DNA of 64,000 nt, from positions 151,686 through 215,685 of the forward strand of contig JAHBYU010000003.1 of assembly GCA_019635775.1 (NCBI GenBank), in the 5' to 3' direction. This stretch comes from Rhizobiaceae bacterium (GTDB taxonomy: Bacteria; Pseudomonadota; Alphaproteobacteria; Rhizobiales; Rhizobiaceae). The position numbers and the translations under genes were made by a program. Shown here in pieces: positions 18,298-40,285 of the stretch (positions are counted from its first letter, which is position 1; every line of letters begins with the position of its first letter). The notes under the pieces are model-generated. The model searched no databases. It worked only from the letters and a program-made list of their open reading frames with translations, and was not told where the DNA came from.

Positions 18298-19134
18298 TCA
18301 GCCGACGAAGGCGCGTTCGACCACAAAATCGGCAGGTTGGTTCAGCGAACCTTCCTCGAACCCGATCTTCTCGACCAGTTCCTTGACGTCCTTGAGCATG
18401 TGCATGGAACCGCAGATCATAACGCGGTCGGTCGCTGGCGACAGCGGGGCAAGGCCCGTATCCTCATAGAACCGGCCATTCTCGATCAGGCGCGTGATGC
18501 GGCCCATGCGCGGCGTGATCTCGCGTGTCGTGGTCGAGTAGAGCGTCACCCTGCCCTGTGTCAGTTCGCCGATCAGCGGATCGGCGGCGAGATTCTCGAA
18601 AAGCTCGACGCCATAGGCCAGCTCGGCATGGTCGCGGCAGGTATGGGTGAGGATGATCTCCTCGAATTTCTCGTAGGTGTCTGGATCGCGCACCAGGCTT
18701 GCAAACGGCGCGATGCCGGTTCCGGTCGAGATCATGAACAGGCGCTTCGCAGGCATCAGTGCGTCGGTGACCAGCGTGCCGGTGGACTTCTGCCGCAGCA
18801 GCACGGTGTCGCCGGGCTGTATCTTCTGGAGATGCGAGGTCAGCGGGCCATCCGGCACCTTGATCGAGAAGAACTCGATCTCCTCGTCCCATGCCGGGCT
18901 GGCGATGGAATAGGCGCGGAAGACCGGCTTCTCGGCATTCGGCAGCCCGATCATCACGAACTCGCCCGATCTGAACCGGAAGGACTGCGGCCGTGTCACG
19001 CGAAACGAGAAAAGACGATCCGTGTAGTGGCGCACGGATACGACGGTCTCGGCGTACACATTGGCCGGGATCGGGAAGGACGCGGGGCTTTCGGCCGCCG
19101 CGTCCTCTATCCTTGCGGTTGATGTCTGCTGCAT
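18298..19134 (-). CDS. fpr: Ferredoxin--NADP(+) reductase
   Basis: A cytosolic FAD enzyme that moves electrons between NADPH and ferredoxin or flavodoxin. The 278-residue protein has the FAD motif RAYSIASP, the NADP motif GTGIAPFASLVRDP, and the C-terminal VVERAFVG tail typical of bacterial subclass II enzymes. The start at 19134 has AAAGG upstream; the open frame to 19311 has no coding character. It diverges from hyuA, and the 194-base gap holds a palindromic site shared with the hydroxylase/pncA promoter region, so it may supply reduced ferredoxin to the 6-hydroxynicotinate-reductase-like enzyme. Fpr can also be a general stress or housekeeping enzyme. Confidence 0.93.
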   Translation of the reverse strand: MQQTSTARIEDAAAESPASFPIPANVYAETVVSVRHYTDRLFSFRVTRPQSFRFRSGEFVMIGLPNAEKPVFRAYSIASPAWDEEIEFFSIKVPDGPLTSHLQKIQPGDTVLLRQKSTGTLVTDALMPAKRLFMISTGTGIAPFASLVRDPDTYEKFEEIILTHTCRDHAELAYGVELFENLAADPLIGELTQGRVTLYSTTTREITPRMGRITRLIENGRFYEDTGLAPLSPATDRVMICGSMHMLKDVKELVEKIGFEEGSLNQPADFVVERAFVG

Positions 19135-19234
19135 TCTCGAGCCTTTCGACAACACGACACTCCGCGCTGGATCTTCTAGCATCCGGCGCGTCGGGCAAAG
19201 CGGCTGGAACGGTGATGCCTTGTTTGGGGAATTT

Positions 19235-19250
19235 ATTAGTATACAAATGA
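19235..19250. promoter_or_regulatory. Shared palindromic site 1 (fpr/hyuA divergent region)
   Basis: ATTAGTATACAAATGA, a near-palindrome around GTATAC. It matches the site in the pncA/hydroxylase gap (ATTCGTATGCAAATGA) at 14 of 16 positions. It lies 100 bases from the fpr start and 78 bases from the hyuA start. The MarR-family gene at 23767 is the only regulator in the island and so the best candidate to bind it. Confidence 0.65.
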
Positions 19251-19328
19251 ATATCGGGTCAAGATATCGAGGCGGAACGGGCTTCCAACTTGTCGGCCTA
19301 GAGCAGTTCATCGTTCCGGATTTCGTGC

Positions 19329-21413
19329 ATGGCTGAGAAAAATCGGGCGGGGCATGATGTTTCTACTGGCGGCGGCGTCGTTGCCGGCATCGATGTCGGC
19401 GGAACTTTCACCGACCTTATCCTGATCGACGATCGCAACGGCGGGGTGCGCATAGCAAAGGTGCCGACGACGCCCGACAACCAGGCTTTCGGTGTCGTGG
19501 AGGCGCTGGGCGCGACCGGCGTCGGCGTGGCCGGCATCGATCTGATCGTCCATGGAACGACGACCACGACAAATGCCGTGCTGGAACGGCGGCTGGCTAA
19601 AACCGGCATGATCACCACGCGCGGCTTTCGTGACGTGATCGAACTTGGCCGGCGCACGCGCCCGCAACCCTACGGCATGACGGGCAGTTTCGTTCCGGTC
19701 ATTGCGCGCAACCTGCGCCTTGAGGTGTCGGAACGCGTCGAGGCGGGCGGCAGGGTGCGTACGCCGCTCGATGAGGATGAGGTCAGGGCTGCGGTACGGC
19801 AATTGCTCGAAGCCGGCTGCGAGTCTCTGGTCATCCATTTCCTGCATGCCTACGCCAACCCGGCGCATGAAAGACGCGCAGCCGAAATCGCGCGAGAGTC
19901 CTGGCCCAATAGCTACATCACGACCGGCCATTCGCTGCTTTCGGAGGCGCGCGAATTCGAGCGCGGCGTGACAGCATCGGTGAATGCCTCCGTGCAGCCG
20001 ATCCTCGAGCGCTATGTCGAGAAATTGCGCAACGAACTGGAAGGAAGGGGCTATGCTCGCGACTTCCTGATCATGAACGGAAATGGCGGCATGATCTCGG
20101 CGCGCTTCGTGGCGCGGGAAGCCGCCAAGACGGTGATGTCTGGGCCGGCTTCGGGCGTCATTGCCGCTGCCAGCACCGGCAGGCGCGCCGGCTACAGGAA
20201 CCTCGTTACCTACGACATGGGCGGCACGTCGAGCGATGTGGCGTTGATCCTCGACGCCGAGCCTGCCGTCTCCAACGAGACCGAGATCGAGTATGCGATG
20301 CCGATCCATGTACCCATGGTGGCGGTGCACACGGTGGGCGCTGGTGGCGGCTCGATCGCGCGCGTTGACGCATCGGGCCTGATCCAGGTCGGCCCGGAAA
20401 GCGCCGGTGCGACGCCGGGTCCGGTCTGCTACGGCCGTGGGGGTTCGGAGCCCACCATCACGGATGCCAACCTGGTGCTGGGCAGGCTCGACCCGAAACG
20501 GCTTCTGGCCGTCGATACGCCGGTGACAGTCGAGCAGGTGAGGGAAGTCTTCGAACAGAGGATCGGACGGGTCGCGGGGCTCGATTCCATTGCTGCCGCT
20601 GGCGCCGTTCTCAAGCTCGGCAACCTGAAGATGGCCGGCGCCATCCGCATGGTGTCGGTGAGCAGGGGCCACGACCCGCGCGACTTTGCCCTGTTCGCCT
20701 TCGGCGGCGCCGGACCGCTGCACGCTTCGGCGTTGGCGCGCGAGCTTGGACTGCCGACCGTGCTCGTCCCGGCGCGACCCGGCATCACGAATGCGTTGGG
20801 CTGCGTGGTCGCAGATCTGCGCCACGATTTCGTCAACACGATCAACCAGCCTCTGCCCCAGCTCGACGAGGCCAATGTCCGCGCGGTCCTGGAGCGACAT
20901 CGCGCCCAGGGCGAGGCGCTGATCGCAAAGGAAGCCGTCCGGCCGGAGAAGATCCGCACCGTCCATTCGGCCGACATGCAGTTCGTCGGCCAGACCCATA
21001 TCCTCACTGTGCCGCTACCATCCTCCGACGTGTCGCGGGAGCAGCTTCAGACATTGTTCGAGAAAGCCTACTTCGCGCGCTTCCGCGTCGAGCTTCCGGA
21101 AATCCGCGCCAATCTGGTCAATCTCAACACGTCCGTGATCGGGGTGAGGCAGGCCGTCGATCTCGGGCAACTGATAGACCCTGCGGGCAGGGCGAAGGAT
21201 CTGGACGGAGCGCTACGCGAGGTCCGGCCGGTCTGGTATGAAGGCGCGTGGTTCGATACGCCGGTTTACCTGCGTGAGAAATTGCCGCTAGATGCCATCT
21301 TGCATGGGCCAGCCATCCTCGAACAGCTGGACGCGACGACGGTTCTGGAGCCTGGCGATGTCGCGAGGAGCGATGCTGACGGAAATCTTCTGATCGAGGT
21401 GGGAAAGGCATGA
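19329..21413 (+). CDS. hyuA: Hydantoinase/oxoprolinase family protein, subunit A
   Basis: The ATP-binding subunit of an ATP-dependent cyclic-amide hydrolase or related enzyme, 694 residues, the standard length. The N-terminal ASKHA motif is AGIDVGGTFTDLILIDD (about 19) with VHGTTTTTNAVLERR, and the second phosphate motif is YDMGGTSSDVALI. Members open hydantoins or 5-oxoproline, or carboxylate acetone-type ketones. It overlaps hyuB by ATGA. In this island it could open the lactam made by the hydroxylase and reductase, but substrate cannot be read from sequence. The ATG at 19329 has only a weak GGAT ribosome site. Confidence 0.92.
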   Translation: MAEKNRAGHDVSTGGGVVAGIDVGGTFTDLILIDDRNGGVRIAKVPTTPDNQAFGVVEALGATGVGVAGIDLIVHGTTTTTNAVLERRLAKTGMITTRGFRDVIELGRRTRPQPYGMTGSFVPVIARNLRLEVSERVEAGGRVRTPLDEDEVRAAVRQLLEAGCESLVIHFLHAYANPAHERRAAEIARESWPNSYITTGHSLLSEAREFERGVTASVNASVQPILERYVEKLRNELEGRGYARDFLIMNGNGGMISARFVAREAAKTVMSGPASGVIAAASTGRRAGYRNLVTYDMGGTSSDVALILDAEPAVSNETEIEYAMPIHVPMVAVHTVGAGGGSIARVDASGLIQVGPESAGATPGPVCYGRGGSEPTITDANLVLGRLDPKRLLAVDTPVTVEQVREVFEQRIGRVAGLDSIAAAGAVLKLGNLKMAGAIRMVSVSRGHDPRDFALFAFGGAGPLHASALARELGLPTVLVPARPGITNALGCVVADLRHDFVNTINQPLPQLDEANVRAVLERHRAQGEALIAKEAVRPEKIRTVHSADMQFVGQTHILTVPLPSSDVSREQLQTLFEKAYFARFRVELPEIRANLVNLNTSVIGVRQAVDLGQLIDPAGRAKDLDGALREVRPVWYEGAWFDTPVYLREKLPLDAILHGPAILEQLDATTVLEPGDVARSDADGNLLIEVGKA

Positions 21414-23092
21414 CTCTCGACGCCATCACGCTTTCGGTGATCCAGGCAGCACTGCAGCAGACCTGCGACGAGATGGACCTGACTTTCAGCCGCGCCGCGT
21501 TCTCGCCCGTCATTGCGGAGGCGAACGACCGATCGGACGGAATCTATTCGGCCGTCGATGGCTCGCTGATCGCACAGGGCTCTCAGGGACTACCGGTGTT
21601 TGTCGGCGTCATGCAGTACTCTACGAAGACGATCATCGAGATGATCGCCGACAGGCGCTGCCTGCCGCCCGAAGAGGGCGACATCTACATCGTCAACGAC
21701 CCCTATCTCGGCGGCACGCACCTGATGGACGTGCGTTTCGCCATGCCGGTCTACAGGGGCGACACGATTTTCTGCTGGCTCTCCAACACCGGCCACTGGC
21801 CTGACATTGGTGGTGCGGTGCCGGGCGGTTTCTCCGCATCCGCGACCGCAGTCGAGCAGGAAGGCCTGCGCCTGCCGCCGGTGAAGCTCTTCAAGAAGGG
21901 AAAGCTCGATCCCGAGATCTACGCGATCATCACCTCCAATATACGCGTAGCCGACCAGCGCATCGGTGACATCCGGGCACAGGCGGCGGCGTTGCGCGTG
22001 GGGCAAGAGCGGCTTTTCGCAATCCTCGACCGCTATGGCGACGACACGGTGACCGAGGCGATCGCCGAGTTGCGCAAACGCGCGGCCGAGCAGATGCGCG
22101 CCAGCATCGCGGATATACCCGACGGCATCTACCGCGCGAAAGCCTTCGTGGACTCCGACGGCGTCGTGAACGAGCCGCTGACCATAACGCTGGCAGTGGA
22201 GAAAAAGGGCGACGGCCTGACTTTCGATTTCTCGGGCTCATCGAAACCCTGCGCGGGTCCGATGAACAGCGTGCTCGCAACCACGCTGTCGTCGGTCTAT
22301 CTGGCGATGCGGCACATCTTCCCGCAAGTGCCTATCAGCGCGGGCGCATTCGAGCCGCTGAACGTGCTTACACCGGAAGGCACTTTCCTTGACGCTAAAT
22401 ATCCGCGTCCCGTCTCAGGCTGCGCCGCTGAGGTGTCGCAGCGCATAGCAGAAGCGGTATTCGCGGCGATGGTGCAGGCCCTGCCGGACAGGGTGACGGC
22501 GGCTCCGGCGGGTTCAAGCGGAAATTTTGCCCTCGGCGGCCACGATCCGGCGCGGGGTCGCGATTTTGTCATGTACCAGATTTCCGGCGGAGGCTATGGC
22601 GGCAATCTGCGCGAAGACGGGCTGACCAATGGATGCTCAACCATCGGCATCTCCAAGTCTCCGCCGGTTGAAATCATGGAGCAGGCCTTTCCGGTGCTCT
22701 ATCGGCACTATGCGTTGCGCGAGGGTTCCGGCGGCGCAGGCAGGCATCGCGGCGGCTTCGGCCTGTCCTACGAAGTTGAGTTGCTTCGCGGAGAAGCGCG
22801 TGCGTCCTTCGTCATGGATCACGGTCGTTTCGGCCCGCAAGGCGTGCTTGGCGGAAAGGACGGCGCGGTCAACACGGTCACCGTCTTCCGCGACGGCCAG
22901 GCGCATGTGCCCGTTCATCTCTCCAAGGAGCAGGACATTCCGTTGAAGGCCGGCGACCGCGTCCGTGTCGGCACGCCAGGCGGGGGTGGTTACGGCGATC
23001 CCGCAAAGCGGGACCGCGACCTCGTCAGGCGTGACATTGCGCTTGGCTACTACACGGCGGACGAAGCGGACAGGCTGTTCGGATCAGCCTGA
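21410..23092 (+). CDS. hyuB: Hydantoinase B/oxoprolinase family protein, subunit B
   Basis: Partner of HyuA, 560 residues. The family is evident from DEMDLTFSRAAFSPVIAEAND, the metal-binding region YLGGTHLMDVRFAMPVY with NTGHWPDIGG, and the C-terminal RVGTPGGGGYGDP. Subunit B carries the metal site that activates the ring or ketone substrate in characterised relatives. The start overlaps the hyuA stop (ATGA at 21410-21413), so the two are made together. Its 3' end overlaps the convergent glycolipid-binding-like gene by 43 bases. Confidence 0.92.
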   Translation: MTLDAITLSVIQAALQQTCDEMDLTFSRAAFSPVIAEANDRSDGIYSAVDGSLIAQGSQGLPVFVGVMQYSTKTIIEMIADRRCLPPEEGDIYIVNDPYLGGTHLMDVRFAMPVYRGDTIFCWLSNTGHWPDIGGAVPGGFSASATAVEQEGLRLPPVKLFKKGKLDPEIYAIITSNIRVADQRIGDIRAQAAALRVGQERLFAILDRYGDDTVTEAIAELRKRAAEQMRASIADIPDGIYRAKAFVDSDGVVNEPLTITLAVEKKGDGLTFDFSGSSKPCAGPMNSVLATTLSSVYLAMRHIFPQVPISAGAFEPLNVLTPEGTFLDAKYPRPVSGCAAEVSQRIAEAVFAAMVQALPDRVTAAPAGSSGNFALGGHDPARGRDFVMYQISGGGYGGNLREDGLTNGCSTIGISKSPPVEIMEQAFPVLYRHYALREGSGGAGRHRGGFGLSYEVELLRGEARASFVMDHGRFGPQGVLGGKDGAVNTVTVFRDGQAHVPVHLSKEQDIPLKAGDRVRVGTPGGGGYGDPAKRDRDLVRRDIALGYYTADEADRLFGSA

Positions 23093-23658
23093 CCGTCGGA
23101 ACCAAGTTCCAGCTCCCAGAGATCGGGATAGAGCCTGACGAAGCCGCTCTTGTCCATTTCGAGAATTGCCTCGTAGCCTGACGGCGGCGAGGAGTACCAG
23201 TAATGAGTCTCGTCGCGCCGCTCATAGATCTGGGGAAGTTCGACGAGCCGTTCCTGGCCGATATCGAACCATGCTACCGAAAATTCCGCGCGCTCCCCGA
23301 TCTCCAGCTTTGCGCGACCAAGCTGCTGAAGATTGGTGGCCGGCGTGAAGCCGAAATCGAGATCTGCGATGTCGGCAAATCCCTGCGGCTTGCCGTCGAG
23401 CTTCCAGCCCTCCGGTGTGCGTTCCATCGCATGGAAAAAGCGCCGCCCGCCCGATATGCCGCGAATGCTGCCGCGCTTGCTGTTCCATGCGTCATCCATT
23501 TCCAGCGTATAGTTCACCGCGACAGGGCCGTCTTCGCCAAGGAAGGACGACATGCCCGTTAGGTGCCAGCCGGTCAGGGCCTGCGCCAGCAGTGCGGCGT
23601 CATGGCCTGGCGTATGCAGGGTGCGCCACAAAACGGATTCGGAGGTTCGGTCGAGCAT
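23050..23658 (-). CDS. Putative glycolipid-binding family protein (DUF1089)
   Basis: A 202-residue cytoplasmic protein of the putative glycolipid-binding (DUF1089) family, whose beta-barrel fold has been proposed to hold lipids; no function is proven. The pattern includes HLTGMSSFLGEDGPVAVNYT, GWKLDGKP and a C-terminal LYPDLWELE. It has no signal peptide. It lies 108 bases downstream of the MarR gene on the same strand but is not overlapped with it, so membership in the catabolic operon is uncertain. Confidence 0.8.
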   Translation of the reverse strand: MLDRTSESVLWRTLHTPGHDAALLAQALTGWHLTGMSSFLGEDGPVAVNYTLEMDDAWNSKRGSIRGISGGRRFFHAMERTPEGWKLDGKPQGFADIADLDFGFTPATNLQQLGRAKLEIGERAEFSVAWFDIGQERLVELPQIYERRDETHYWYSSPPSGYEAILEMDKSGFVRLYPDLWELELGSDGQADPNSLSASSAV

Positions 23659-23766: not shown

Positions 23767-24222
23767 TCACGCTATCCGGGCGAGTAGCCTCATCAGTGTC
23801 GCCGCCTCCCGCTGTGACAGCGGCTGCAGGGTCTCGGCGGTGATCTCTTCCGCGAGCGGAACGAGCCGATCCAGCGTTTCCCGTCCTTGCGAAGTCAGGC
23901 TGACCATCAGGCGACGCCTGTCGACTTTGTGCCTGCTGACCTCAACAAGCCCACGCGCCTTCAGCCGGTCGATGACGCCCTTGATCGTTGCCGCATCCAT
24001 TGCGACCATGCTGCCGAGCTGGTTTTGCGAGGTTTCGCCAACATCGGCCAGCTTGGCGAGCGCTGCGAACTGCGGCGGCGTCATGTCTGCGATCCGGCCA
24101 GCAAAGATCGCGACGTGGCGCTGGTGTGCCCGTCGCAGTATGAAACCGATCTGTTCCTGAAGGCGATAGCTTGCGTCCTGCGACTCGGGATCGAGAAGCC
24201 TGACCTCGCTTTCGCCGGTCAT
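23767..24222 (-). CDS. MarR-family transcriptional regulator
   Basis: A 151-residue winged-helix regulator. The dimerisation helices run from SYRLQEQIGFILRRAHQRH, followed by the HTH (PPQFAALAKLADVGETSQNQLG and AATIKGVIDRLKARGLVEV) and the wing (KVDRRRLMVSLTSQG). The start at 24222 gives standard MarR length; the frame upstream to 24441 overlaps the DUF1185 gene and is not coding. It is the last gene of the hydroxylase operon, 13 bases after DUF1185. MarR proteins of catabolic clusters commonly sense the aromatic substrate; here the two shared palindromes are its likely targets. Confidence 0.9.
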   Translation of the reverse strand: MTGESEVRLLDPESQDASYRLQEQIGFILRRAHQRHVAIFAGRIADMTPPQFAALAKLADVGETSQNQLGSMVAMDAATIKGVIDRLKARGLVEVSRHKVDRRRLMVSLTSQGRETLDRLVPLAEEITAETLQPLSQREAATLMRLLARIA

Positions 24223-24235
24223 GCTGGCGATCCGT

Positions 24236-24820
24236 TCATCGCAATCCGTCCTCTCCCTTGACCTGCGATGCTTCCAGCCCGCCCATCCGACTATGCACGC
24301 GACCGCCGATCGACATGGCAAGGGCGAACAGGATTTCGTCGGGTCGCGGACCCTCCGGATCAGCAACGGTGATCGCATCGAAATGACTGCGAACATAGGC
24401 GGCGTTGGTGTGGCCGAGTGGCACGTCGAGGCTGGCGCCAAAGGCGCCGCGCTTCATAGCCGAGGGTACGATGGCTTTCGATGCGCCGAGGCTCTCGCGC
24501 ATCGAGTAGCCTCCCGGGACGTGCCAGAGAGCCCCGTGCTCGAGCTCGCCCGCAGTTCCGACGATCGCTCCCTTGCCATAGCCGTCGATGACAGATGCGT
24601 CGCCGCCGAGAACGGCAAGCAGGCGCTCGGTCAAAAGCCGGCCGAGTGGCTTCAGATCGTCCATCGCCGGTTGAAGCTCTGCCGAATAGGCACCGGCGAA
24701 CGGATTCTTCACGATCGCCCACGCTGCCGCCCGTTTGCGCGGGTGCTCAGGCGACGGACCGCCGTCATGATGGATTTCTTCATTGAGCACCGCGATCTTG
24801 CGGATCGGAAATTCAGGCAT
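24236..24820 (-). CDS. Amino acid synthesis family protein (DUF1185)
   Basis: A 194-residue protein of Pfam family DUF1185 (AA_synth), recognised by the N-terminal RKIAVLNEEIHHDGG and the conserved VIDGYGKGAIVGTAGELEHGA and GHTNAAYVRSHFDA segments. No enzyme activity is established for the family. It overlaps the UPF0280 gene by 8 bases and precedes the MarR gene. The glycine-rich segments and conserved His and Glu residues would suit a small catalytic role, perhaps on a ring-opening intermediate; that is inference. Confidence 0.85.
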   Translation of the reverse strand: MPEFPIRKIAVLNEEIHHDGGPSPEHPRKRAAAWAIVKNPFAGAYSAELQPAMDDLKPLGRLLTERLLAVLGGDASVIDGYGKGAIVGTAGELEHGALWHVPGGYSMRESLGASKAIVPSAMKRGAFGASLDVPLGHTNAAYVRSHFDAITVADPEGPRPDEILFALAMSIGGRVHSRMGGLEASQVKGEDGLR

Positions 24821-25712
24821 GCATCTCTTCCCTGTGCATTTCGTTCTTCAGGCCTCGACCGGCCGGTCGATCCTCGCCTACGTCGCCACAAATACGGTCT
24901 TCTCCATTGAGGAAAAGCGCAGCCGCCTCGATCAGCCGATTCCGGCGCAGGTCTTGCGCAATCGCCAGCCCGTTTTCGAGCGCGGCGGCAACGTCTCCGC
25001 TCGAAAGTGCTCCGACATCCGTCGTCACCAGGATGTCGCCGAGGTCGCTGTCTGGTGAAAGCGAATTCGCAGGCACACGCGTGATCGCAGCATGTCCGGG
25101 CAGGTCGACGGCATTGGCGATGATGGTCGCGGCCGCGTCCGCTTCGGCTCCCGAGCGCGCCAGAACGGTCACCGCATCGGCGATGCCGAGTGAAAGGGAC
25201 CGTCCGCGCCAGCCGCTGGTTGCGACCCCGCGCACCGCATCTTCCGCGCTCACCGCAACCGTGTCGGCAAGTCCATTGCCCGTTCCGGCGATGGCAAGCC
25301 GCATGGAGAAACCAGGCGCCAGGTGCAACGCGCTGTCGCCACCATTGTTGACATAGGCTTTCTCAAGCCTGCGCCCCGCGACCAGGCTCGACAGTATTTC
25401 GTCGGCTACCGAACCGGCAACGGCGGCCATCGGCGTGATGAACGTCCGGCCGGCCAGCGGCGAGACTGCCGCCTCCATCCTCTGTGCGGTCCTGCTCCTG
25501 AATAAGCGCGGTGTAGGCGGCGAGGCGCTGCGCAAAGCGGGCAGCTCCTCGACCAGTTCAGTCAGAACCGTCTGGAACCGATCGATCGCCTGCGTGTATG
25601 CGGCTTCGACCTCGCCGGCTTGTCCGAACGCCTCCACCACGAGATCGATCGGCCCGTGATTCAGGTGGAGCCGCCGGCCATCCGGCAGGAGAGCCGCCTG
25701 AGGACCGGTCAT
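24813..25712 (-). CDS. UPF0280-family protein
   Basis: A 299-residue protein of UPF0280, a family related to ApbE-like folds and without a proven function. Visible features are FITPMAAVAGSVADEILSSL, the KAYVNNGGDSALHLAPG segment, and VATSGWRGRSLSLGIADAVTVLA followed by DLPGHAAI. It overlaps the reductase-like gene by ATGA at its start and the DUF1185 gene by 8 bases at its end, so it is made in fixed proportion with them. It may handle a reduced pyridine intermediate or help cofactor assembly; neither can be decided here. Confidence 0.85.
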   Translation of the reverse strand: MTGPQAALLPDGRRLHLNHGPIDLVVEAFGQAGEVEAAYTQAIDRFQTVLTELVEELPALRSASPPTPRLFRSRTAQRMEAAVSPLAGRTFITPMAAVAGSVADEILSSLVAGRRLEKAYVNNGGDSALHLAPGFSMRLAIAGTGNGLADTVAVSAEDAVRGVATSGWRGRSLSLGIADAVTVLARSGAEADAAATIIANAVDLPGHAAITRVPANSLSPDSDLGDILVTTDVGALSSGDVAAALENGLAIAQDLRRNRLIEAAALFLNGEDRICGDVGEDRPAGRGLKNEMHREEMHA

Positions 25713-30890: not shown

Positions 30891-30910
30891 ATCATTCGTA
30901 TGCAAATGAT
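30891..30910. promoter_or_regulatory. Shared palindromic site 2 (hydroxylase operon/pncA divergent region)
   Basis: ATCATTCGTATGCAAATGAT has perfect 6-base arms (ATCATT/AATGAT). Its inner 16 bases (30894-30909) match the site between fpr and hyuA at 14 of 16 positions. It lies 46 bases upstream of the FAD-subunit start and 116 bases upstream of pncA, so one bound regulator could control both directions. Confidence 0.7.
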
Positions 30911-31637: not shown

Positions 31638-32345
31638 TCAGGTCACGCCGACATAACGCTTCACGATATCCGGATCCTCGCGCAACCGATCGACCTCGAC
31701 CGTTTCGCGAACCCGACCATTTTCGATGAATGATACGCGGTCGGCGACCTTCAGCACCGCGTCTACCCGCTGTTCCACGAGGATCGTCGAGACGCCACGA
31801 TCTCTCAGGGTCGCGACCGACTGGCGGATCTTCGCAATCATCGAAGGCATCAGGCCCTCGGTGGGTTCGTCAAGCAGCAGGACTCGCGGTTCCAGACAAA
31901 GCGCACGCGCCATTGCCAACTGCTGCTGCTCGCCTCCCGACAATGTGCCGGAGCGCTGCCTCAATCTTTCGCGCAGGACGGGAAAGAGGTCGAGCACCGC
32001 TTCGCGCACGTCACTGCCCATGTGCCGCGCCATCAAGCCGATCTCGATGTTCTCTGCGACCGTCATCTCGGCGAACAGCCGCCTGCCCTGCGGAACATAG
32101 GCGACACCGGCCCTAGGAACCTCATGCGGGGGCAATCGCGTGAGTTCCACGTCGCCGAGCCTGATCGATCCGGCTCGCGCCGGCACGAGCCCCATGATGC
32201 ATTTCAGGGCGGTGGTCTTGCCCGCTCCGTTGCGGCCGAGCAGGCAATGAACCTCGCCCTGCCTGAGGGACAGGTCCAGGCTATAGAGGACCTGCGTCTC
32301 CCCATAGAAGCAGTCAACGCCACGAACCGAAAGCGCGTCAGCCAT
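31638..32345 (-). CDS. Branched-chain-type ABC transporter ATP-binding protein (LivF-like)
   Basis: A 235-residue ATPase of the HAAT (Liv) importer family. Walker A is GRNGAGKTT, the signature LSGGEQQQLAMARAL, and Walker B VLLLDEPTEGL. The start at 32345 overlaps the LivG-like stop by 8 bases; the longer open frame to 32444 lies inside the LivG-like gene. It is the last gene of the five-gene transporter operon. Its genomic place suggests uptake of the island's substrate, such as a nicotinamide-like amide, but these importers also carry amino acids, urea and amides. Confidence 0.93.
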   Translation of the reverse strand: MADALSVRGVDCFYGETQVLYSLDLSLRQGEVHCLLGRNGAGKTTALKCIMGLVPARAGSIRLGDVELTRLPPHEVPRAGVAYVPQGRRLFAEMTVAENIEIGLMARHMGSDVREAVLDLFPVLRERLRQRSGTLSGGEQQQLAMARALCLEPRVLLLDEPTEGLMPSMIAKIRQSVATLRDRGVSTILVEQRVDAVLKVADRVSFIENGRVRETVEVDRLREDPDIVKRYVGVT

Positions 32346-33081
32346 CCTCGTCTCCCTCTTCGGGAGTGCCCAGATAGGCATGCTGGACGGCTGCGTTTGA
32401 GCGGATCTGTTCCGGTGTTCCTTCGGCGAGGATGCGCCCGGCATTCAGGACCGTGATGCGGTCGGCCAATTCCATGACAACGGGCATGTTGTGCTCGATC
32501 AGGAGGACGGTGGCGTCGCGCGCGATCTCGCGCACCAGCCCGATGAAATTCTCGATCTCGCCGTCCGAAAGGCCCTGGGTCGGTTCATCGAGGATGAGAA
32601 GTCGCGGTTTCAGCGCCAATCCCATGGCAACCTCCAGGAGGCGCTGGTGCCCGTAGGACAGGGTGCCTGCTACGATGTCCTCCCGGCCGGCCAGCCCGAC
32701 CCGCTCGAGCGCGGCCATCACGCCGGCATGCACCGCGCCATGCCGTCTGCCGTCGGTCAGCGTACGTTGGATCGGAAGCGCGACGTTGTCATAGGCAGTC
32801 AGGTTCGCGAACACGCTGGTGATCTGGAACGTATAGGCGATGCCGTGCCGTACGCGTTCGTGCGGCGGCATGTTGGTGATGTCGTTGCCGTCGAAAACGA
32901 TCATGCCCGAAGAGGATTCGATTCGCCCGCAGATCAGGCTGACGAAGGTGGTCTTGCCGGCTCCATTCGGGCCGATGATGGCGCGGATCTCACCCTGCAT
33001 GACCGCAAAGTCGATATTGTCCACCGCCTTCAGCCCGCCGAATTGGCGACTTAGGTCCTTTGTTGTCAGAAGCGGCGTCAT
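32338..33081 (-). CDS. Branched-chain-type ABC transporter ATP-binding protein (LivG-like)
   Basis: A 247-residue ATPase with Walker A GPNGAGKTTFVSL, a family GTLSYGHQRLLEVAMGL signature and Walker B LLILDEPTQGLS. The Liv-G group pattern THNMPVVMELADRI is seen as IEHNMPVVMELADRI. The start at 33081 forms an ATGA overlap with the LivM-like gene; an ATG six codons upstream is less likely. It forms the nucleotide-binding pair with the LivF-like protein. Confidence 0.93.
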   Translation of the reverse strand: MTPLLTTKDLSRQFGGLKAVDNIDFAVMQGEIRAIIGPNGAGKTTFVSLICGRIESSSGMIVFDGNDITNMPPHERVRHGIAYTFQITSVFANLTAYDNVALPIQRTLTDGRRHGAVHAGVMAALERVGLAGREDIVAGTLSYGHQRLLEVAMGLALKPRLLILDEPTQGLSDGEIENFIGLVREIARDATVLLIEHNMPVVMELADRITVLNAGRILAEGTPEQIRSNAAVQHAYLGTPEEGDEDG

Positions 33082-34061
33082 GGCAGCCACCTCGCCCAAC
33101 GATCCCGGATCGTGCCGAGGATGCCTTTCGGGAAGAACAGCACGAGGATGATCAGCGCCGCGCCGACAATGCCGAGATGGCTTATGTTCCAGCCAGGTGC
33201 ATATGTCTTGAGCAGGTCGCCGGAGCCGTCAATGAGATAGAACATCAACACGGTTCCAACCAGAGGCCCGAGCGTGGTGGATGCACCGCCGAGCAATACC
33301 CACAGCAGCGGCAGGATCGAGTACTGGATCGATGCGAAGGTGGAGCCGACATAGCCGAACAAGATGAGATAGGCTGCGCCTGCAGCGCCGCAGATCGCGC
33401 CTGAGGCGACCATCGCCACAAGCTTGTTGGCGAACGTGTCGTAGCCCAGCATCCGTGTCCGCTCCTCGTTTTCGCGGATGGCGATGAGCACGCGGCCGAA
33501 GGACGAGCGAACAAGCGCGAACGTCACAAGGAGCACAACCGAGAACAGGAAAAGGGCTGTCATGTAGCGTGTAGTTGGCTCTGTGAGGTCCAGCGTTGTC
33601 GCGCCGATCTCGATTGCCCGCGCATGCTGCTGAATGACGAGGCCTTCGTCACCGCGTGTCCATGATCCGAAATAGTAGACGAGCAGGTATCCCACCTGCG
33701 CGAACATCATCGTGACGATCATGAACGCCACGCCCTTCGTGCGCAGAGCCAGCATTCCGATGACGAACGCAAGGATCGTGGCCGCAGAAAGCCCCGAAAG
33801 GAAGGCAGCCAGTACCCCCCAACCGAAATGATACATGGGCAGACCGGCACCATAGAGGCCGGCGGCGAAGAACATGGCGTGACCGAGGCTGAGAAGCCCG
33901 GCATAGCCGAACAGGAGATTGTAGCCCATGGCGAAAACGGCTAGGACCAGGACACGAGCCAGCACACCGTGATGGTACTCGGGTAGCACGAAGTTCAGCG
34001 CGAACAACGCCGCGATGACACCGCCGTGCAGAGCGATTGCCTTGCCGTCTCGCCCTGTCAT
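33078..34061 (-). CDS. Branched-chain-type ABC transporter permease (LivM-like)
   Basis: A 327-residue polytopic permease with about nine or ten hydrophobic segments. The family motifs NLLFGYAGLLSLGHAMFFAAGLYGA near residue 48 and GATTLGPLVGT near residue 260 (seen as GGASTTLGPLVGTVLM) identify it as LivM. It overlaps the LivH-like and LivG-like genes by ATGA at both ends. Confidence 0.92.
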   Translation of the reverse strand: MTGRDGKAIALHGGVIAALFALNFVLPEYHHGVLARVLVLAVFAMGYNLLFGYAGLLSLGHAMFFAAGLYGAGLPMYHFGWGVLAAFLSGLSAATILAFVIGMLALRTKGVAFMIVTMMFAQVGYLLVYYFGSWTRGDEGLVIQQHARAIEIGATTLDLTEPTTRYMTALFLFSVVLLVTFALVRSSFGRVLIAIRENEERTRMLGYDTFANKLVAMVASGAICGAAGAAYLILFGYVGSTFASIQYSILPLLWVLLGGASTTLGPLVGTVLMFYLIDGSGDLLKTYAPGWNISHLGIVGAALIILVLFFPKGILGTIRDRWARWLP

Positions 34062-34939
34062 CGTGCTGCCGTCCCGAACAGGCCTTGCGGTCGGAACACC
34101 AGCACCATCGCGACGACGAAGGTTGCGATGATCTTGGCAAGGGTCGGCGAGAAGAAGACGGAGATGATGCCATCCGATACGCCGATCAGCAGTGCTGCAA
34201 CGACGGTGCCACGCAGACTTCCCAGCCCACCGATGATGACCACGATGAAGGAGAGCAGGAGTGGATCGCGCCCCATGAGGTAATGCGCCTGGCTGATCGG
34301 CACGATGAGAACCGCCGCGACAGCCGCCAGCATCGCGCCGACGGCGAAGACACCGGTATAGACGCGCCCAACCGGGATGCCGAAGGCCTGTGCGGTCTCG
34401 CTGTCATACTGGGTGGCGCGCATGATCATGCCGATACGCGTGCGCGACAGAACAAACCAGGTAGCGAGAAGCAACAGGATCGACGCGCCGATCACGGCGA
34501 GCTTGTATCCGGAATAGCCAAACCAAGGCAGCGAGACGCGATAGGTGAAAGGTGCCTGCACAGGCCTCGCCTCCGGGCCGTAGAAGGTCAGCGCGACCTG
34601 CTGGAGGATATAGAGAAGGCCGATAGTCGCCACAATCGTCGCCTCGGGATTGTAGTCGAGGCGCTTCAACACAAGGCGGTCTGCGACGAGCGCGACGCCG
34701 CCTACGATCAGCGGAGAGATGACAAGAGCCGCCAGAAAGCCAATCGATGGATGCCCGCCAAAGGCCGAGGCGATTGCCCATGCCAGCACCGCGCCAAGCA
34801 TGTAGAATTCGCCATGCGCGACATTGACGACGCGCATGACGCCGAACACCAGCGAGAGCCCGAGCGCCATCAGGGCGAGCACCGCTGACGTTACAAGCCC
34901 TTCCAGCGTGGCCAGAATGAGGTGCGGCCCGAACGCCAT
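34058..34939 (-). CDS. Branched-chain-type ABC transporter permease (LivH-like)
   Basis: A 293-residue permease, the usual LivH length, with about eight membrane segments. Family motifs include GLSLVFGVMRVVNVAHGEFYMLGA near residue 27 and VIIGGLGSLRGTVVAALLIG near residue 237. Its ATG lies 47 bases after the binding-protein stop, and its stop overlaps the LivM-like start by ATGA. Confidence 0.93.
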   Translation of the reverse strand: MAFGPHLILATLEGLVTSAVLALMALGLSLVFGVMRVVNVAHGEFYMLGAVLAWAIASAFGGHPSIGFLAALVISPLIVGGVALVADRLVLKRLDYNPEATIVATIGLLYILQQVALTFYGPEARPVQAPFTYRVSLPWFGYSGYKLAVIGASILLLLATWFVLSRTRIGMIMRATQYDSETAQAFGIPVGRVYTGVFAVGAMLAAVAAVLIVPISQAHYLMGRDPLLLSFIVVIIGGLGSLRGTVVAALLIGVSDGIISVFFSPTLAKIIATFVVAMVLVFRPQGLFGTAAR

Positions 34940-34986: not shown

Positions 34987-36279
34987 TCACAGGGGCTGGG
35001 TCGTGTAGTCGCCCTCGGGTTCGTAGAGGCCGTCCTCAATGGTCGTCTTGTGGACGACCTTGAGCTTGCCGTCCTCGACCACCGAGATGTTCTGGATTCC
35101 GAAGCACTGATGAATCTTGCCGTTGAAGGTCTTCGGACCCTGTGGGTGCTCCGGTCCTTCCGCGAATTCGGTCAGCGCCTCGGTAGCCTCGACAAGCTTG
35201 CCCCGATCCTCCGGGCCCTTGTAATCGGCATTCTCCATCGCCTTCTTGATGACGTAGAGCGTCTCCCAGCAGCCGAACATATGCGCGGCGGTCGAGACGT
35301 CCTTGGGATCGTCGACCGAAGCGCCGTTTTCGTCGATGCCGACAGCCGCGCGATAGGCTTTCATGGCATCGGTATCGTTGTCCTGTGCGTAGCGCGGCGC
35401 GCCTTCCCAGAAGTGGCTCCCATTGAGGAATTCGAGGCCCGGGCTGTTGATGTCGACCGCTTCGAGGCTGTCGATGAAGCCGAACAGTTTCGGACCGCTG
35501 CCGCCGTAGAACTCGCCGAGTTCCTTGACGAAGGTAAGCACAGCCGGTCCGACCATCACATGATAGATGACGTCCGTGTCTGCGGGAATTTGCGGGAAGT
35601 ATTTTGTGAAGCTGCTCTCCGTCGGCGGGATGGCGATCTGCGCTATGACGTCGGCACCCTGGGCCTTGAGGGCTGGCGGCAGGTAATCGCGATGGTCGTA
35701 GCCAAAGGCGAAGTCGGGAAATATCTGCGTGACCTTCTTGCCGGCATAGGCCGAGATCCAGGGAGCCATCGCCTGAATCTGGCTCTTCACGTCGGTGATG
35801 CCGGGCTGGAACACATAACGGTTCAGCTTGGTGGACGCGACGTGGTGGCCCTCGGAAACGACGAAATAGGGCAGCTTCATCTCACCGGCGACCGGAGCGG
35901 AGCCAATGACGACATGGCTGAACAATGTGCCGTAGGCGACATCCACCTTGTATTGCGTGGCGAACTTGCCGACGATCTCCGCGCCACGGCCCGGATCGGT
36001 CCCGTCGTCCTCTACGATCACCTCGACCATGCGCCCGTTTATGCCGCCTGCGTCGTTGATGGCCTTGATGGCGGCATTTGTGGTCTTCTCGTACCAGCGG
36101 CCATAGGCGGCTCCGATGCCGGTGCGGTGCGCCTGGAAGCCGATCTTGATAGGCGCTGAGCTTTGTGCCTGAGCATAGCGGACGAACCCCGGACCAGCGA
36201 CGATGCCGGTGGCGGCCGCGCCGAGACCCTTCAACGTGCTGCGGCGGGAAATCTTCTTGCCGAAGATCGAACTGGTCAT
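34987..36279 (-). CDS. Branched-chain-type ABC transporter substrate-binding protein, Tat-exported
   Basis: A 430-residue periplasmic binding protein of the Leu/Ile/Val or short-chain-amide group. The N terminus has the twin-arginine motif SRRSTLKG followed by a hydrophobic stretch and a cleavage site near AQAQ, so it is exported folded by the Tat system. The mature protein begins with PIKIGFQAHRTG, the family start. It is the first gene of the transporter operon. Proteins of this group bind amino acids, urea or amides; nicotinamide or a related compound is suggested only by pncA and the catabolic genes next to it. Confidence 0.9.
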   Translation of the reverse strand: MTSSIFGKKISRRSTLKGLGAAATGIVAGPGFVRYAQAQSSAPIKIGFQAHRTGIGAAYGRWYEKTTNAAIKAINDAGGINGRMVEVIVEDDGTDPGRGAEIVGKFATQYKVDVAYGTLFSHVVIGSAPVAGEMKLPYFVVSEGHHVASTKLNRYVFQPGITDVKSQIQAMAPWISAYAGKKVTQIFPDFAFGYDHRDYLPPALKAQGADVIAQIAIPPTESSFTKYFPQIPADTDVIYHVMVGPAVLTFVKELGEFYGGSGPKLFGFIDSLEAVDINSPGLEFLNGSHFWEGAPRYAQDNDTDAMKAYRAAVGIDENGASVDDPKDVSTAAHMFGCWETLYVIKKAMENADYKGPEDRGKLVEATEALTEFAEGPEHPQGPKTFNGKIHQCFGIQNISVVEDGKLKVVHKTTIEDGLYEPEGDYTTQPL

Positions 36280-36329: not shown

Positions 36330-36341
36330 GCCCGTACGGGC
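36330..36341. promoter_or_regulatory. Perfect 12-bp palindrome upstream of the Liv-type operon
   Basis: GCCCGTACGGGC lies 51 bases upstream of the binding-protein start. It may be an operator, but at 12 bases and high GC it could also occur by chance. It does not resemble the two shared palindromes in the island. Confidence 0.3.
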
Positions 36342-36418
36342 GGCGGCTACAATTGGTCCATACGGGAAAACTAAATCACCAATCCCAAGAGGTGGCAACT
36401 GCGATGCTGCATTGCACC

Positions 36419-37891
36419 TTATGCCGCCGTGGGTGTGGACAGGAGCCAGAGGCCGAACACCGTATAGGCGATCATGAGCAATGTAAGCGGCAACTGACCG
36501 AGTGTCGCAGACCACCCGACACCGTACAGCCGGTATGCCAGAAGGTGCGCCACCAGTACCGCAAGCACATGCCCGCCCACGATCGCCGCCGCCTGCGCGT
36601 TCCAGATCAGCCATGCTGCATCCGACCCGGCTGCGATCCCCGCCATCACCGGCATGTGGGCCATTCCGAACAGGTTCCATCCGAGCGAAAACGGATCGGA
36701 GAGCGCGACGGCGGCATATTGGCCGTTGACGAGCAGCAGGGTGAGATAGTGCGAGAAATGGTAGGCGAGCGCGATGGGCACGATGGACCAGACCAGCGTG
36801 CCTGTTGCAAGGGTGATCGTTGCGCGGCGGCTCGCAAGCCGATCTCCAAGCGCGACGCAAGCGAAGAAGATTCCCGCAAGTGCCATGCATGATGCCACAA
36901 GGCCGATGCCGTTCACCTGCATCAGCGCGGTCCTGCCTGGAAATTCCAGCGGGTTCAGCCCGTTCAACCAGAACCAGAAGAACGTCTTCGAAAAGCCGTC
37001 GAATGAAACCGACGCCAACGCGCAGAGCAGGAAGATCGTACCGCTGATGTCGAGCGGTCTTGTGTCCGCGAGTTTTGACCCGGGCAGACGAAGAAACAGT
37101 GTTTCGTCGCGGCCGGCTCCGATGATTCCAAAACGACCCATCATGCGCAGGAACACGGACAGGAATTCCCCGCGGCGGCTCCATTCATCAAATCCGAAGA
37201 GCAGCATCATGACGAAACTGAAAAGCCAGTAGCTGCCGACCGCCCATGCCAGCCGCTCCGGATCGTCGGGTGCCGGGTAGATCAGTTCGAACCAAGCAAA
37301 GACCAGCAACGATCCAACAGCCGGCCACATGCCGACCCATCCGGGAAGCCTGAAAACCGAGGTTTCGGTTTCCCCAGTCGATTGTTTTCGTATCAGACGC
37401 CAGGGTCCGTACCACGGGTTGATAAAGCGCCAGATATCGCCGAACACACCCTGCAGCAGGGTCAGACCAACCCAGAGCAACGTCCAGACTGTCAACGGCA
37501 GCGGATTTGATAGCGGATCCCGGCTACCGATGAAGCCTGCAACGACCAGCGCAACGAAGAACACAAAGGACAAGAGGCTAAGCGTCAGTCGAAGGCCTTG
37601 CGGGACATGCCCGATACGATGACGCAGCCTTGCGGTTTTCTCGAGCGTTTCCGGGGACACCGCCAGCAGCACCAGAAAGCTAGCCGCGACGGCGAGCGCC
37701 CCTCCCACCATGTAATGGCCTGTCGGAAGAAGCAGGACATGGCCGCGATCGGAAGCGTGGGCGAGTGCGTCGGTTGGCAGGGACGCGCACAGCAGACAAA
37801 GCACGGCCAGAATGAACCGACTTTGACACCGCGCAAGCGGTGCACACGAATGCCCCGTGCTGCCGGTTTGCTCAGACGGTAACGTCCGCAC
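36419..37891 (-). CDS. Polytopic membrane protein, fenitrothion-hydrolase-like, unknown function
   Basis: A 490-residue integral membrane protein with a possible signal segment (FILAVLCLLCASLPTDALA) and about eleven or twelve hydrophobic segments. Landmarks are ASDRGHVLLLPTGHY after the signal and FGDIWRFINPWYGPWRLIRK near residue 150. They remind me of membrane proteins annotated as fenitrothion hydrolase, but no catalytic residues can be confirmed. The start is GTG at 37891, abutting the pncB stop, with GAAGG before it, so translation is probably coupled to pncB. A transporter role cannot be excluded. Confidence 0.7.
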   Translation of the reverse strand: MRTLPSEQTGSTGHSCAPLARCQSRFILAVLCLLCASLPTDALAHASDRGHVLLLPTGHYMVGGALAVAASFLVLLAVSPETLEKTARLRHRIGHVPQGLRLTLSLLSFVFFVALVVAGFIGSRDPLSNPLPLTVWTLLWVGLTLLQGVFGDIWRFINPWYGPWRLIRKQSTGETETSVFRLPGWVGMWPAVGSLLVFAWFELIYPAPDDPERLAWAVGSYWLFSFVMMLLFGFDEWSRRGEFLSVFLRMMGRFGIIGAGRDETLFLRLPGSKLADTRPLDISGTIFLLCALASVSFDGFSKTFFWFWLNGLNPLEFPGRTALMQVNGIGLVASCMALAGIFFACVALGDRLASRRATITLATGTLVWSIVPIALAYHFSHYLTLLLVNGQYAAVALSDPFSLGWNLFGMAHMPVMAGIAAGSDAAWLIWNAQAAAIVGGHVLAVLVAHLLAYRLYGVGWSATLGQLPLTLLMIAYTVFGLWLLSTPTAA

Positions 37892-39196
37892 TCAAACCTT
37901 CACCAGTTGCTCGACGCGATCCTCCTCGCCGAACACGCGCAGATAACGCTCGATTTCCCTGCGGTCGCCGGTCGCCTTCGCCGGATTGTCCGACAGCTTC
38001 ACGGCGGGATTCCCATTTGCCTCGGTCACCTTGCACACGAGCGAAATGGCGCCCAGCCCATCGGTCTCTTCCGGCGCGCAATCTTCGAAATCGTTGGTGA
38101 GGTTCGTACCCCAGCCGAAGGACATGCGGACCTTTCCCTCAAAGTGCTTGTAGGTGTCGATGATCGTATCGACATCAAGGCCGTCGGAAAAGATCAGCAG
38201 CTTCTTGCGCGGGTCCACCCCCTTTTCGCGCCACCATGAGAGGATTCTCTCCCCGCCTTCGATCGGAGGGGCGCTGTCCGGGCGAAATCCCGTCCAGCCG
38301 GCGACCCAGTCGGGCGCGTCGCGCAGGAAGGCGGCGGTGCCGAAGGCGTCGGGCAGCACGATGAGGAGATTGCCGCCATAATAGCGCTGCCAGTCCTGCA
38401 ACACGTTGTAGGGGGCCGCGCGAAGTTCGGTTTCGTTGCGCGCCAGCGCGGCCAGGACCATAGGCAGTTCATGCGCGTTGGTGCCCAGCGCCTCGAGGTC
38501 CGTATCCATTGCCAGCAGTACGTTGGAGGTGCCGGTGAAGGCCTCGCCGATGCCTTCCTTCAGAGCCTCCACGCACCAGCGCTGCCACAGGAAGGAGTGC
38601 CGCCGCCGCGTTCCGAAGTCCGAAATCCTGAGATCCGGCAACGCACGCAGCCGTTCGGTCTTCGCCCACATCTTGGCCTTCGCGCGCGCATAGAGCACAT
38701 CCAGACCGAACGGGCCAAAGCTCTTCATGGCCGCGCGCGAGCGCAACTCGTTGATGATCGCAAGCGCCGGTATTTCCCACAGCGTCGTGTACATCCACGG
38801 GCCAGGGAACTCGAGTTCGTACTGGCCGTCGCGCTTCGTCAACTGATATTCCGGCAGGCGGAAATCCTCGAGCCACGTCAGGAATTCCGGTTCGAAGATC
38901 TGTTTGCGGCCATAGAATGTGTTGCCACCCAGCCAGATCATTTCCTTCTTGGTGAACCGCAAGCTGCGGGCATGATCGAGCTGGTCACGCAATTCGTGCT
39001 CGTCGATCTCGTCGGCAAGCCGCACGGAGGTCTTGCGATTTATGAGCGAGAAGGTCGCGTTGACCTTGGGATACATGCCCCAGATCATCTGGAGCATCAG
39101 CAGCTTGTAGAAGTCCGTATCGAGCAGGCTGCGCACGATCGGATCGAGCTTCCAGGTGTGGTTGTACACACGCTGCGCTATATCTGTTCTTGTCAT
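37892..39196 (-). CDS. pncB: Nicotinate phosphoribosyltransferase
   Basis: Joins nicotinate and PRPP to nicotinate mononucleotide in NAD salvage, with ATP hydrolysis. The 434-residue protein shows [16 protein letters not shown] at the N terminus and the phosphate-binding [11 protein letters not shown] near residue 343, plus the central [15 protein letters not shown] segment where the family carries its active-site residues. The start at 39196 is preceded by GGGAGAGGA. It follows iunH on the same strand (147-base gap) and precedes the membrane protein without a gap. With pncA 7 kb away, both salvage steps from nicotinamide are encoded here. Confidence 0.95.
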
Positions 39197-39343
39197 CGGC
39201 GCGTCCTCTCCCGCCGTCCCTCCGGCGGCCTTGAATGGAAACGCCTATAGCATTGATTTTTCTGCAGCGCGCGCCCGTCGCGCCTGCTGGCACGACGGAA
39301 AGTCATTCTGGCGGGTAGCACCCGTCGCCGCATACGGATGCGG

Positions 39344-40285
39344 CTAGAGCCGCCCGATCCTTTCGATCAGAAGCTGGAAAAGGGCTTCGTGGTCGACATC
39401 GCGCAGATAGGTGGCGTTTGCCGGCTTGTTCGTCACACCCCACCAGTCCGCCACCGTCATGCCCAGCGTCAGTTCGGAAACCGTTTCTATGCTTACATTG
39501 ATGAACCGGCCTGAGAACAGATCAGGCTTCAACAGATAGGCGATGACACAGGGATCGTGCAGAGGCCCGCCATCCGTGCCGTACTTGCTTTCGTCGAAGC
39601 GTTCGAAGAATTCGAGCATCTCGGCGACCGCAATGCCAGGTCTCGTAGCCAGCCCGCGGAATGCCGCGACCCGTTTTGCCGTTGTCAGGACCTTGTGGGT
39701 GCAATCCAGCGGAACGATGACGGTCGGTATGCCGGACGCCAGAACCAGCGCGGCTGCATGTGGATCGACATAGATGTTGAACTCCGCGGCCGGCGTGACA
39801 TTGCCACCCTCGAAGAGCCCGCCGCCCATGAGAACGATCTCACGTATGCGCGGTGCTATTTTCGGTTCGCGTTTCAGCGCGAGCCCGAGATTGGTCAGCG
39901 GGCCAAGTGCACAGATCGTGACGGCTCCACTTTCCTCGCGCTTCAGCGTCTCGATAATGAAGTCTACCGCGTCCTGGTCCTGGAGCGGCATGGTCGGCTC
40001 GGGCAGCGTCGGGCCGTCGAGGCCTGTCTTGCCGTGCACATTCTCCGCAGTGACGAGCTTGCGAACCATTGGATGCTCAGCCCCGGCGAAAACCCTGGTG
40101 TCGGGTCTGCCGGCCAGTTCGCAGATCTTGCGTGCGTTCTTCTCGGTCAGGGTAAGGGGAACATTACCTGCGACAGCGGTGATGCCAAGGATTTCAAGTT
40201 CCGGACTGGCGAGCGCCGTCATTATGGCGACGGCGTCGTCCTGACCGGGATCGGTATCGATGATTATCTTTCTGATTTCAGGCAT
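39344..40285 (-). CDS. Nucleoside hydrolase (IunH family)
   Basis: Cleaves the N-glycosidic bond of ribonucleosides to base and ribose. The 313-residue enzyme has the calcium-binding signature DTDPGQDDAVAIMTAL near residue 10, the VPLDCTHKV segment, and the C-terminal DPCVIAYLL with the family Asp. The start has AAGGACAGGAA before it. It is upstream of pncB on the same strand. Nicotinamide riboside or a purine/pyrimidine nucleoside could be the substrate; the pncB link makes the former worth testing. Its 5' side lies close to the hsp20 heat-shock promoter on the other strand. Confidence 0.93.
   Translation of the reverse strand: MPEIRKIIIDTDPGQDDAVAIMTALASPELEILGITAVAGNVPLTLTEKNARKICELAGRPDTRVFAGAEHPMVRKLVTAENVHGKTGLDGPTLPEPTMPLQDQDAVDFIIETLKREESGAVTICALGPLTNLGLALKREPKIAPRIREIVLMGGGLFEGGNVTPAAEFNIYVDPHAAALVLASGIPTVIVPLDCTHKVLTTAKRVAAFRGLATRPGIAVAEMLEFFERFDESKYGTDGGPLHDPCVIAYLLKPDLFSGRFINVSIETVSELTLGMTVADWWGVTNKPANATYLRDVDHEALFQLLIERIGRL

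Follow-up and report, generated by a model that had tools for sequence, protein, structure and literature searches.

By which enzyme is the nicotinate ring opened in a bacterium that carries the genes of a reductive niacin pathway and has no recognizable enamidase? The question is raised by a 64,000-nucleotide stretch of DNA (hereafter the window) from a Rhizobiaceae bacterium (assembly GCA_019635775.1, contig JAHBYU010000003.1, positions 151,686 to 215,685; source genome of 4.95 Mb in 36 contigs). An earlier note, made from the sequence alone, had described at window positions 18298-40285 a probable niacin degradation and salvage island with a molybdenum hydroxylase, a 6-hydroxynicotinate-reductase-like protein (Hnr) and a hyuAB gene pair, and had seen no enamidase gene; the open reading frame (ORF) and family scans of the window agreed with its genes and their positions, and the genome search it had proposed bore out the enamidase result (14 first-pass candidates in the whole source genome, none at E 1e-60). 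The island is proposed here to degrade nicotinamide and nicotinate reductively, with HyuAB opening the ring instead of enamidase (estimated probability roughly 0.7). The genes and sites concerned are the following:

18298-19134, minus strand: ferredoxin-NADP-reductase-like protein (fnr), possible electron source of Hnr; start chosen in this analysis
19235-19250, no strand: operator-like palindromic site between fnr and hyuA, ATTAGTATACAAATGA
19329-21413, plus strand: HyuA, ATP-binding subunit of the ATP-dependent lactamase family (PF01968/PF05378)
21410-23092, plus strand: HyuB, metal subunit, proposed enamidase-replacing ring opener (PF02538)
23767-24222, minus strand: MarR regulator; start chosen in this analysis
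24236-24820, minus strand: DUF1185 / AA_synth protein, conserved partner (PF06684, 216 bits)
24813-25712, minus strand: UPF0280 protein, conserved partner (NF003322, 382 bits versus a cut-off of 290)
25709-27238, minus strand: 6-hydroxynicotinate-reductase-like protein (Hnr), with N-terminal Cys cluster C24/C27/C31/C41 and annotated homologues
27235-29988, minus strand: fused 2Fe-2S / molybdopterin hydroxylase (Pfam), proposed nicotinate hydroxylase
29985-30845, minus strand: FAD subunit of the hydroxylase (PF00941/PF03450)
30894-30909, no strand: second operator-like site, between the hydroxylase operon and pncA, ATTCGTATGCAAATGA
31026-31631, plus strand: nicotinamidase PncA (NF008623); start chosen in this analysis

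On the minus strand, the ORFs of the FAD subunit, hydroxylase, Hnr, UPF0280 and DUF1185 proteins each share 4-8 bases with their neighbour; the MarR gene lies 13 bases beyond the DUF1185 gene without overlap, so that the one overlapping operon of the earlier note comprises the former five genes and not the regulator. The product of fnr, a gene absent from the earlier note's list, shares 67% identity with the ferredoxin--NADP reductase of a Sulfitobacter hnr cluster (top model of the NCBIfam scan, the only one made for it: PRK10926, 135.8 bits, under the cut-off of 390); the UPF0280 protein matched the solved structure 2o34 weakly (E 0.0003).

Eubacterium barkeri, an anaerobe with other later steps, ferments nicotinate through nicotinate dehydrogenase, Hnr and enamidase; the window resembles this system in hydroxylation, reduction and ring opening, and differs in that its genome has no enamidase orthologue. 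Enamidase hydrolyses exactly the lactam bond of tetrahydro-6-oxonicotinate and needs no ATP. The later steps of Azorhizobium are a decarboxylation, glutarate and glutaryl-CoA. In aerobes, the reductive route and its gene cluster are not new: both were published in 2012 for Azorhizobium, Bradyrhizobium, Rhodopseudomonas and strain SG-6C, and the available part of that publication reports nicotinate degradation by the Bradyrhizobiaceae strain SG-6C with 6-hydroxynicotinate as a transient, a protein of this strain with 42% identity to an E. barkeri protein, and the assignment of the first three steps within the cluster through E. barkeri homology (PMC3511419). Compared with the clusters described there, the window carries HyuAB and a fused hydroxylase. 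Where the earlier note had expected the later steps to be new, it is the ring opening by hyuAB instead of enamidase that looks new, and its interpretation as a non-orthologous replacement is well supported.

The name of Hnr rests on plasmid-record homologues annotated as 6-hydroxynicotinate reductase; no Pfam or NCBIfam model matched the protein at E 0.001 and no PDB entry did so by phmmer at E 1. Its AlphaFold model, built from 30 sequences, was of low quality (mean pLDDT 65.8, pTM 0.62), and Foldseek gave no PDB match for it at E 0.001. Within the window's order, 74 of 297 genomes carry an orthologue; the figure is 68 of 385 for the class and 32 of 398 for the phylum (the three samples overlap). 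Orthologues also occur in 26 plasmid records (60-80% identity; the loci of eight were fetched) and in named Bradyrhizobium loci; among the best 80 of at least 588 relatives, the nearest named ones are labelled Mesorhizobium (92% and 91%), and neither the Azorhizobium nor the E. barkeri locus appears. As Hnr recurs in 74 of 297 genomes with the same partners, the gene arrangement of the island is no accident. Two marks of the reductive nicotinate cluster, Hnr and a molybdenum hydroxylase in the same operon, are found in the window, and the enamidase is missing. Four Bradyrhizobium loci (L168, L173, L190, L191) are of NicAB type with no opener within the stretch; a genus arranged like them (g39) has enamidase in all eight genomes.

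In the annotated plasmid loci, hnr is accompanied either by an amidohydrolase or by hyuAB, and the amidohydrolase that served as query is an enamidase by sequence (match to the solved enamidase 2vun, E 1.2e-106). The two openers exclude each other almost completely. Of 81 hnr loci (73 from the order, the window among them, and 8 from plasmids; stretches of at most about 20 kb, for plasmids 31 kb, many ended by a contig edge), 27 contained hyuB, 16 contained enamidase, none contained both and 38 contained neither; after addition of 80 named loci, partly from the same genomes, the numbers for the 161 loci were 40, 20, 0 and 101. The search of whole genomes, in some of which only part of the first-pass candidates was scored, assigned 29 of the order's 74 hnr-positive genomes (the fragments G183, G224 and G133 among them; the G183 locus was not fetched) to HyuB only, 39 to enamidase only, one to both (G098) and five to neither (G032, G064, G159, G245, G246), i.e. 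30 with a HyuB and 40 with an enamidase orthologue (cut-offs of at least 69% and 68% identity, respectively; next values 57% and 62%). The predicted alternation was then found in 66 further hnr-positive Alphaproteobacteria, 38 of which had HyuB and 28 enamidase, with none showing both or neither (thresholds E 1e-170 for HyuB and 1e-100 for enamidase; lowest identity 64% for each; G000 and G035 left out as already counted). This set retains G324, in which hnr was read as two overlapping pieces and may be broken or missequenced (G324:C1:2969820-2971252). None of 12 further loci from the phylum search held both openers. Conversely, 30 of the 31 genomes with a HyuB orthologue in the 297-genome order sample were hnr-positive, as were 40 of the 46 with an enamidase orthologue (at least 65% identity). 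In the class set and in the order sample, too, some genomes had only a portion of their first-pass candidates scored.

Several homologues were not counted. Those of HyuB at 57% identity in G064, G159 and G245 were set aside because their surroundings (L194-L197) contain no other cluster gene and because 59% homologues exist in the hnr-negative genomes G131 and G189; four congeners of these three genomes, which have neither orthologue, possess enamidase. Enamidase-like proteins at 60-62% identity to the reference (G209, G248 and a second copy in G087) sit in another cluster (L202, L203, L204). Their neighbours there are a MarR gene, a pair of DUF1185 genes and two matches to nucleoside hydrolases, joined in L202 (the one stretch of the three scanned with Pfam) by a Bmp-type importer; none of the three stretches contains hnr. 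Perhaps this cluster is a further pathway through enamidase, with a nucleoside as its source. G098 holds HyuAB and enamidase, and its congener G181 carries enamidase together with hydroxylase and UPF0280 genes on a different contig from hnr (L103, L107, L207, L208): a possible case of opener replacement caught midway.

The exchange of openers was also followed in trees and in gene content. On a quick Hnr tree (84 proteins, 78 of them typed; L110 and L111 left out) the opener type switches at least five times, with HyuAB in four separate groups; on a tree of 48 fused hydroxylases it switches at least three times. For gene content, 52 thinned loci were compared by families of mechanically called ORFs under single linkage: 20 of HyuAB type, 29 of enamidase type and three untyped. 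L133, L167 and L174 were scored as untyped, their hyuB match lying below the bit limit in the stretch examined. The HyuAB-type loci contained hyuA in 20 of 20, hyuB in 18 and enamidase in none; the enamidase-type loci contained neither hyuA nor hyuB (0/29 each) and enamidase in 16 of 29. Among the families present in at least 16 of the 52 loci, hyuA, hyuB and enamidase were the only ones restricted to one type, hnr, the importer parts, UPF0280 (35 loci), DUF1185 (38 loci), hydroxylase, FAD subunit, MarR and FNR being common to both; a single small family (5 loci, possibly a wrong-frame ORF) was likewise confined to enamidase-type loci.

Is HyuAB suited to the reaction? The pair has the two subunits with Hydantoinase_A and Hydantoinase_B domains that define the lactamase family, and its nearest solved structures are 7hk5 (an N-methylhydantoinase) and 6yra (the top relative of HyuB), followed by acetone and acetophenone carboxylases. 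The chains of 6yra (696 and 581 residues) have the lengths reported for CapA and CapB of Pseudomonas jessenii, and mutation of the Asp phosphate sites and of the Asp-His-Asp-His metal site abolished CapAB activity, as given in the available part of PMC8453981. The window pair is like CapAB in its two-subunit family, Asp phosphate site and metal site: the Asp pair of HyuA and each residue of the Asp-His-Asp-His site of HyuB were retained in 26 of 26 proteins, these motifs being those of the whole family, carboxylases included. The substrate proposed for the window HyuAB, a lactam acid with an unsaturated six-membered ring, would set it apart from CapAB. OplAB of Pseudomonas putida is described as opening the six-membered delta-valerolactam with ATP; the likeness is one of reaction, and the part of the publication at hand makes no nicotinate link (PMC11033972). 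Tetrahydro-6-oxonicotinate is a six-membered lactam as well. Given the exclusion of enamidase and the cyclic-amide hydrolases as nearest solved relatives, HyuAB is the likely ring opener in place of enamidase. The earlier note had placed hyuAB around the operon; its location is correct, and the evidence moves the pair from a mere neighbour to the probable catalyst of this step. Proteins of this subfamily are currently annotated as hydantoinase/oxoprolinase, N-methylhydantoinase or acetophenone carboxylase, and no assignment of HyuAB to nicotinate ring opening was found in the titles and abstract openings of the papers listed from the open-licence literature.

A regulatory connection between both halves of the island is indicated by a common sequence with palindromic core, ATTNGTATRCAAATGA, in the fnr-hyuA and the FAD subunit-pncA intergenic stretches. 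The pattern TTNGTATACNAA occurs 70 times (65 distinct contexts) in 3.48 Mb of fetched loci and 0, 0, 1, 0 and 0 times in five first-order random versions. For the 16-base pattern, which was taken from the two window sites, the shuffle value is circular, and the other genomes are the real test. All but one of the 70 sites (69) fall within the span from 60 bases inside to 450 bases ahead of an extrapolated cluster-gene start; as all loci are cluster-centred, this figure is one of placement. The genes preceded by the site include operons of hnr and the hydroxylase as well as the enamidase genes of other species. It stands before hyuAB-fnr units remote from hnr (about 70 and 100 kb in L205 and L206, on another contig in L213). 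In L212 it precedes enamidase and fnr, a pair located 11 kb from hnr, and in Chelatococcus (L165) an enamidase gene. In the source genome TTNGTATRCNAA was found at three places, two of which are the island promoters; the third (C36:51629) was taken as chance, no cluster gene being recognizable in its ORF list.

The window MarR protein, which may bind the palindrome, is related to the solved structure 6pcp (E 3e-28). BpsR of Bordetella, a MarR-family protein controlling an aerobic, nicC/nicE-type nic cluster, contacts 6-hydroxynicotinate through Tyr15, His23, Arg26 and His32 (PMC6837509, available part); the 6pcp numbering at the aligned residues is identical to that of these contacts, and 6pcp is taken to be BpsR. 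Three of the four contacts (Tyr, Arg and His32) are kept in the window protein. Among 64 MarR proteins, 39 fit this pattern, with Phe (32) or Tyr (7) at the position of His23.

Based on the nicotinamidase, the BpsR-like MarR protein, Hnr and the alternation of enamidase and HyuAB, the island is read as one for niacin. The true nicotinamidase of the earlier note proved to be well founded (215.6 bits against an NCBIfam cut-off of 174), and pncA was found in 13 of the 81 hnr loci (five families, with both openers), in 9 of the 52 thinned loci (both types) and in two of the three hnr loci outside the class. Uptake, deamidation, hydroxylation and reduction of nicotinate, as proposed in that note, are well supported by the gene context.

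Might the openers mark two substrates, HyuAB-type clusters degrading another oxo-azaarene than enamidase-type clusters? The effector-pocket residues of MarR, which differ among clades, would fit such a division, but no column of the Hnr alignment separates the opener types by the criteria used, the trees of Hnr and of the hydroxylase show the types intermingled, both hydroxylase kinds as well as pncA are found with both openers, and the same palindrome stands before HyuAB and enamidase genes; two substrates are thus considered unlikely. Still less credence is given to the idea that HyuAB performs another step (hydrolysis of a later amide, or a carboxylation) and that an unrelated amidohydrolase opens the ring. 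The carboxylases within the HyuAB family and the 14 first-pass enamidase-like candidates of the source genome (none at E 1e-60) speak for it; against it stand the near-perfect exclusion of enamidase and HyuAB, and the cyclic-amide hydrolases, not carboxylases, as nearest solved relatives. A hydroxylase for a purine or aldehyde, in an island that has nothing to do with niacin, is very improbable: the top NCBIfam models of the hydroxylase are indeed aldehyde and xanthine enzymes, all under their cut-offs, as are its top structures, but Hnr, nicotinamidase, the BpsR-like MarR protein and the alternation of openers point to nicotinate.

Several observations weigh against HyuAB as the nicotinate-pathway opener. 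Among solved relatives of the hydroxylase, nicotinate dehydrogenase 3hrd (split chains) ranks behind aldehyde oxidoreductases. As enamidase needs no ATP, its replacement by an ATP-dependent enzyme looks costly. The identity cut-offs of the order set were fixed after the gap in the values had been seen; were enamidase counted from 60% identity, G209 and G248 would join the genomes with both openers, in addition to the exceptions already present (five of 74 genomes without either orthologue, one with both), and the Fisher p values for the exclusion (2e-14 for the order, 3e-19 for the class) ignore relatedness. All three hnr loci outside the class carry enamidase, for which reason enamidase may be the older state. 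Four HyuAB loci (L063, L107, L108, L149) have no exact TTNGTATACNAA site, and the TTNGTATRCNAA count does not exceed its reversed-pattern control (5 forward, 5 reverse). The window MarR protein has Phe at the position of BpsR His23 and so lacks the full set of four contacts, and 12 of 12 further MarR proteins from hyuAB-bearing genomes or plasmids are without an equivalent of His32.

Under the proposed reductive pathway with HyuAB as opener, substrates, electron path and regulation are inferred from what was observed directly, i.e. the gene content, the exclusion of the two openers, the shared operator-like site and the retained catalytic residues. Niacin would be brought in by the Liv-type importer and nicotinamide converted to nicotinate by PncA; the molybdenum hydroxylase with its FAD subunit would yield 6-hydroxynicotinate, which Hnr, with electrons from the FNR-like protein, would reduce to 1,4,5,6-tetrahydro-6-oxonicotinate. 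HyuAB would then open the lactam at the expense of ATP to 2-formylglutarate and ammonium, the step taken by enamidase elsewhere. MarR would repress both halves of the island through the shared palindrome and be released by a pathway compound, probably 6-hydroxynicotinate. It appears quite likely that the HyuAB subfamily is an energy-coupled tetrahydro-6-oxonicotinate lactamase which displaced enamidase several times in Alphaproteobacteria (68 of 140 sampled hnr-positive genomes) and was taken over by the same regulator and operator. If so, a function would be given to a subfamily now annotated otherwise, the upper reductive niacin pathway would be complete for many Alphaproteobacteria, and a single regulon would offer a clean case in which an ATP-free hydrolase was repeatedly replaced by a non-orthologous enzyme that depends on ATP; a scan based on enamidase overlooks about half of the hnr-positive Alphaproteobacteria sampled.

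For the subsequent steps, the genome search for glutarate genes yielded four CoA-transferase family III genes, one of which, with a score of 696.5 bits where the succinate-glutarate CoA-transferase cut-off is 750, is a suggestive candidate for the glutarate CoA-transferase. Of the usual nic genes, which the earlier note had not seen in the window, NicA and NicB were sought, and only in the compared locus stretches. The remaining features of the island are:

23050-23658, minus strand: glycolipid-binding-like protein (PF06475), no role assigned
31638-34939, minus strand: importer genes LivF, LivG, LivM and LivH, named from translations
34987-36279, minus strand: periplasmic binding protein of the Liv importer (PF13458)
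36419-37891, minus strand: membrane protein of 490 residues without Pfam match, recurring next to the Liv-type importer
37892-39196, minus strand: PncB, nicotinate phosphoribosyltransferase, salvage (PF04095/PF17767)
39344-40285, minus strand: nucleoside hydrolase, salvage (PF01156)

LivH-type genes recur at hnr loci, and relatives of the Liv binding protein occur at those of both opener types. In several families the Liv-type importer has the 490-residue membrane protein as a neighbour (three reference proteins share 36-43% identity). The PF06475 protein occurs in 3 of 80 loci (the best 80 of at least 588 Hnr relatives). The genes for PncB and the nucleoside hydrolase are present as the earlier note had stated and are no more than possible members of the degradation module.

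DUF1185 has been tied to amino-acid metabolism by gene context (PMC2954203, available part) and suggested to stimulate coumarin breakdown as a partner protein, an attempt to show this having failed according to the available part of PMC7913881. At many hnr loci DUF1185 genes come in twos; a single one is present in the window and in the seven fetched loci of its family, and family f35 has only the other kind. Elsewhere in the window, a large protein with DUF7929 and DUF11 domains (9383-12592) bears no relation to the island.

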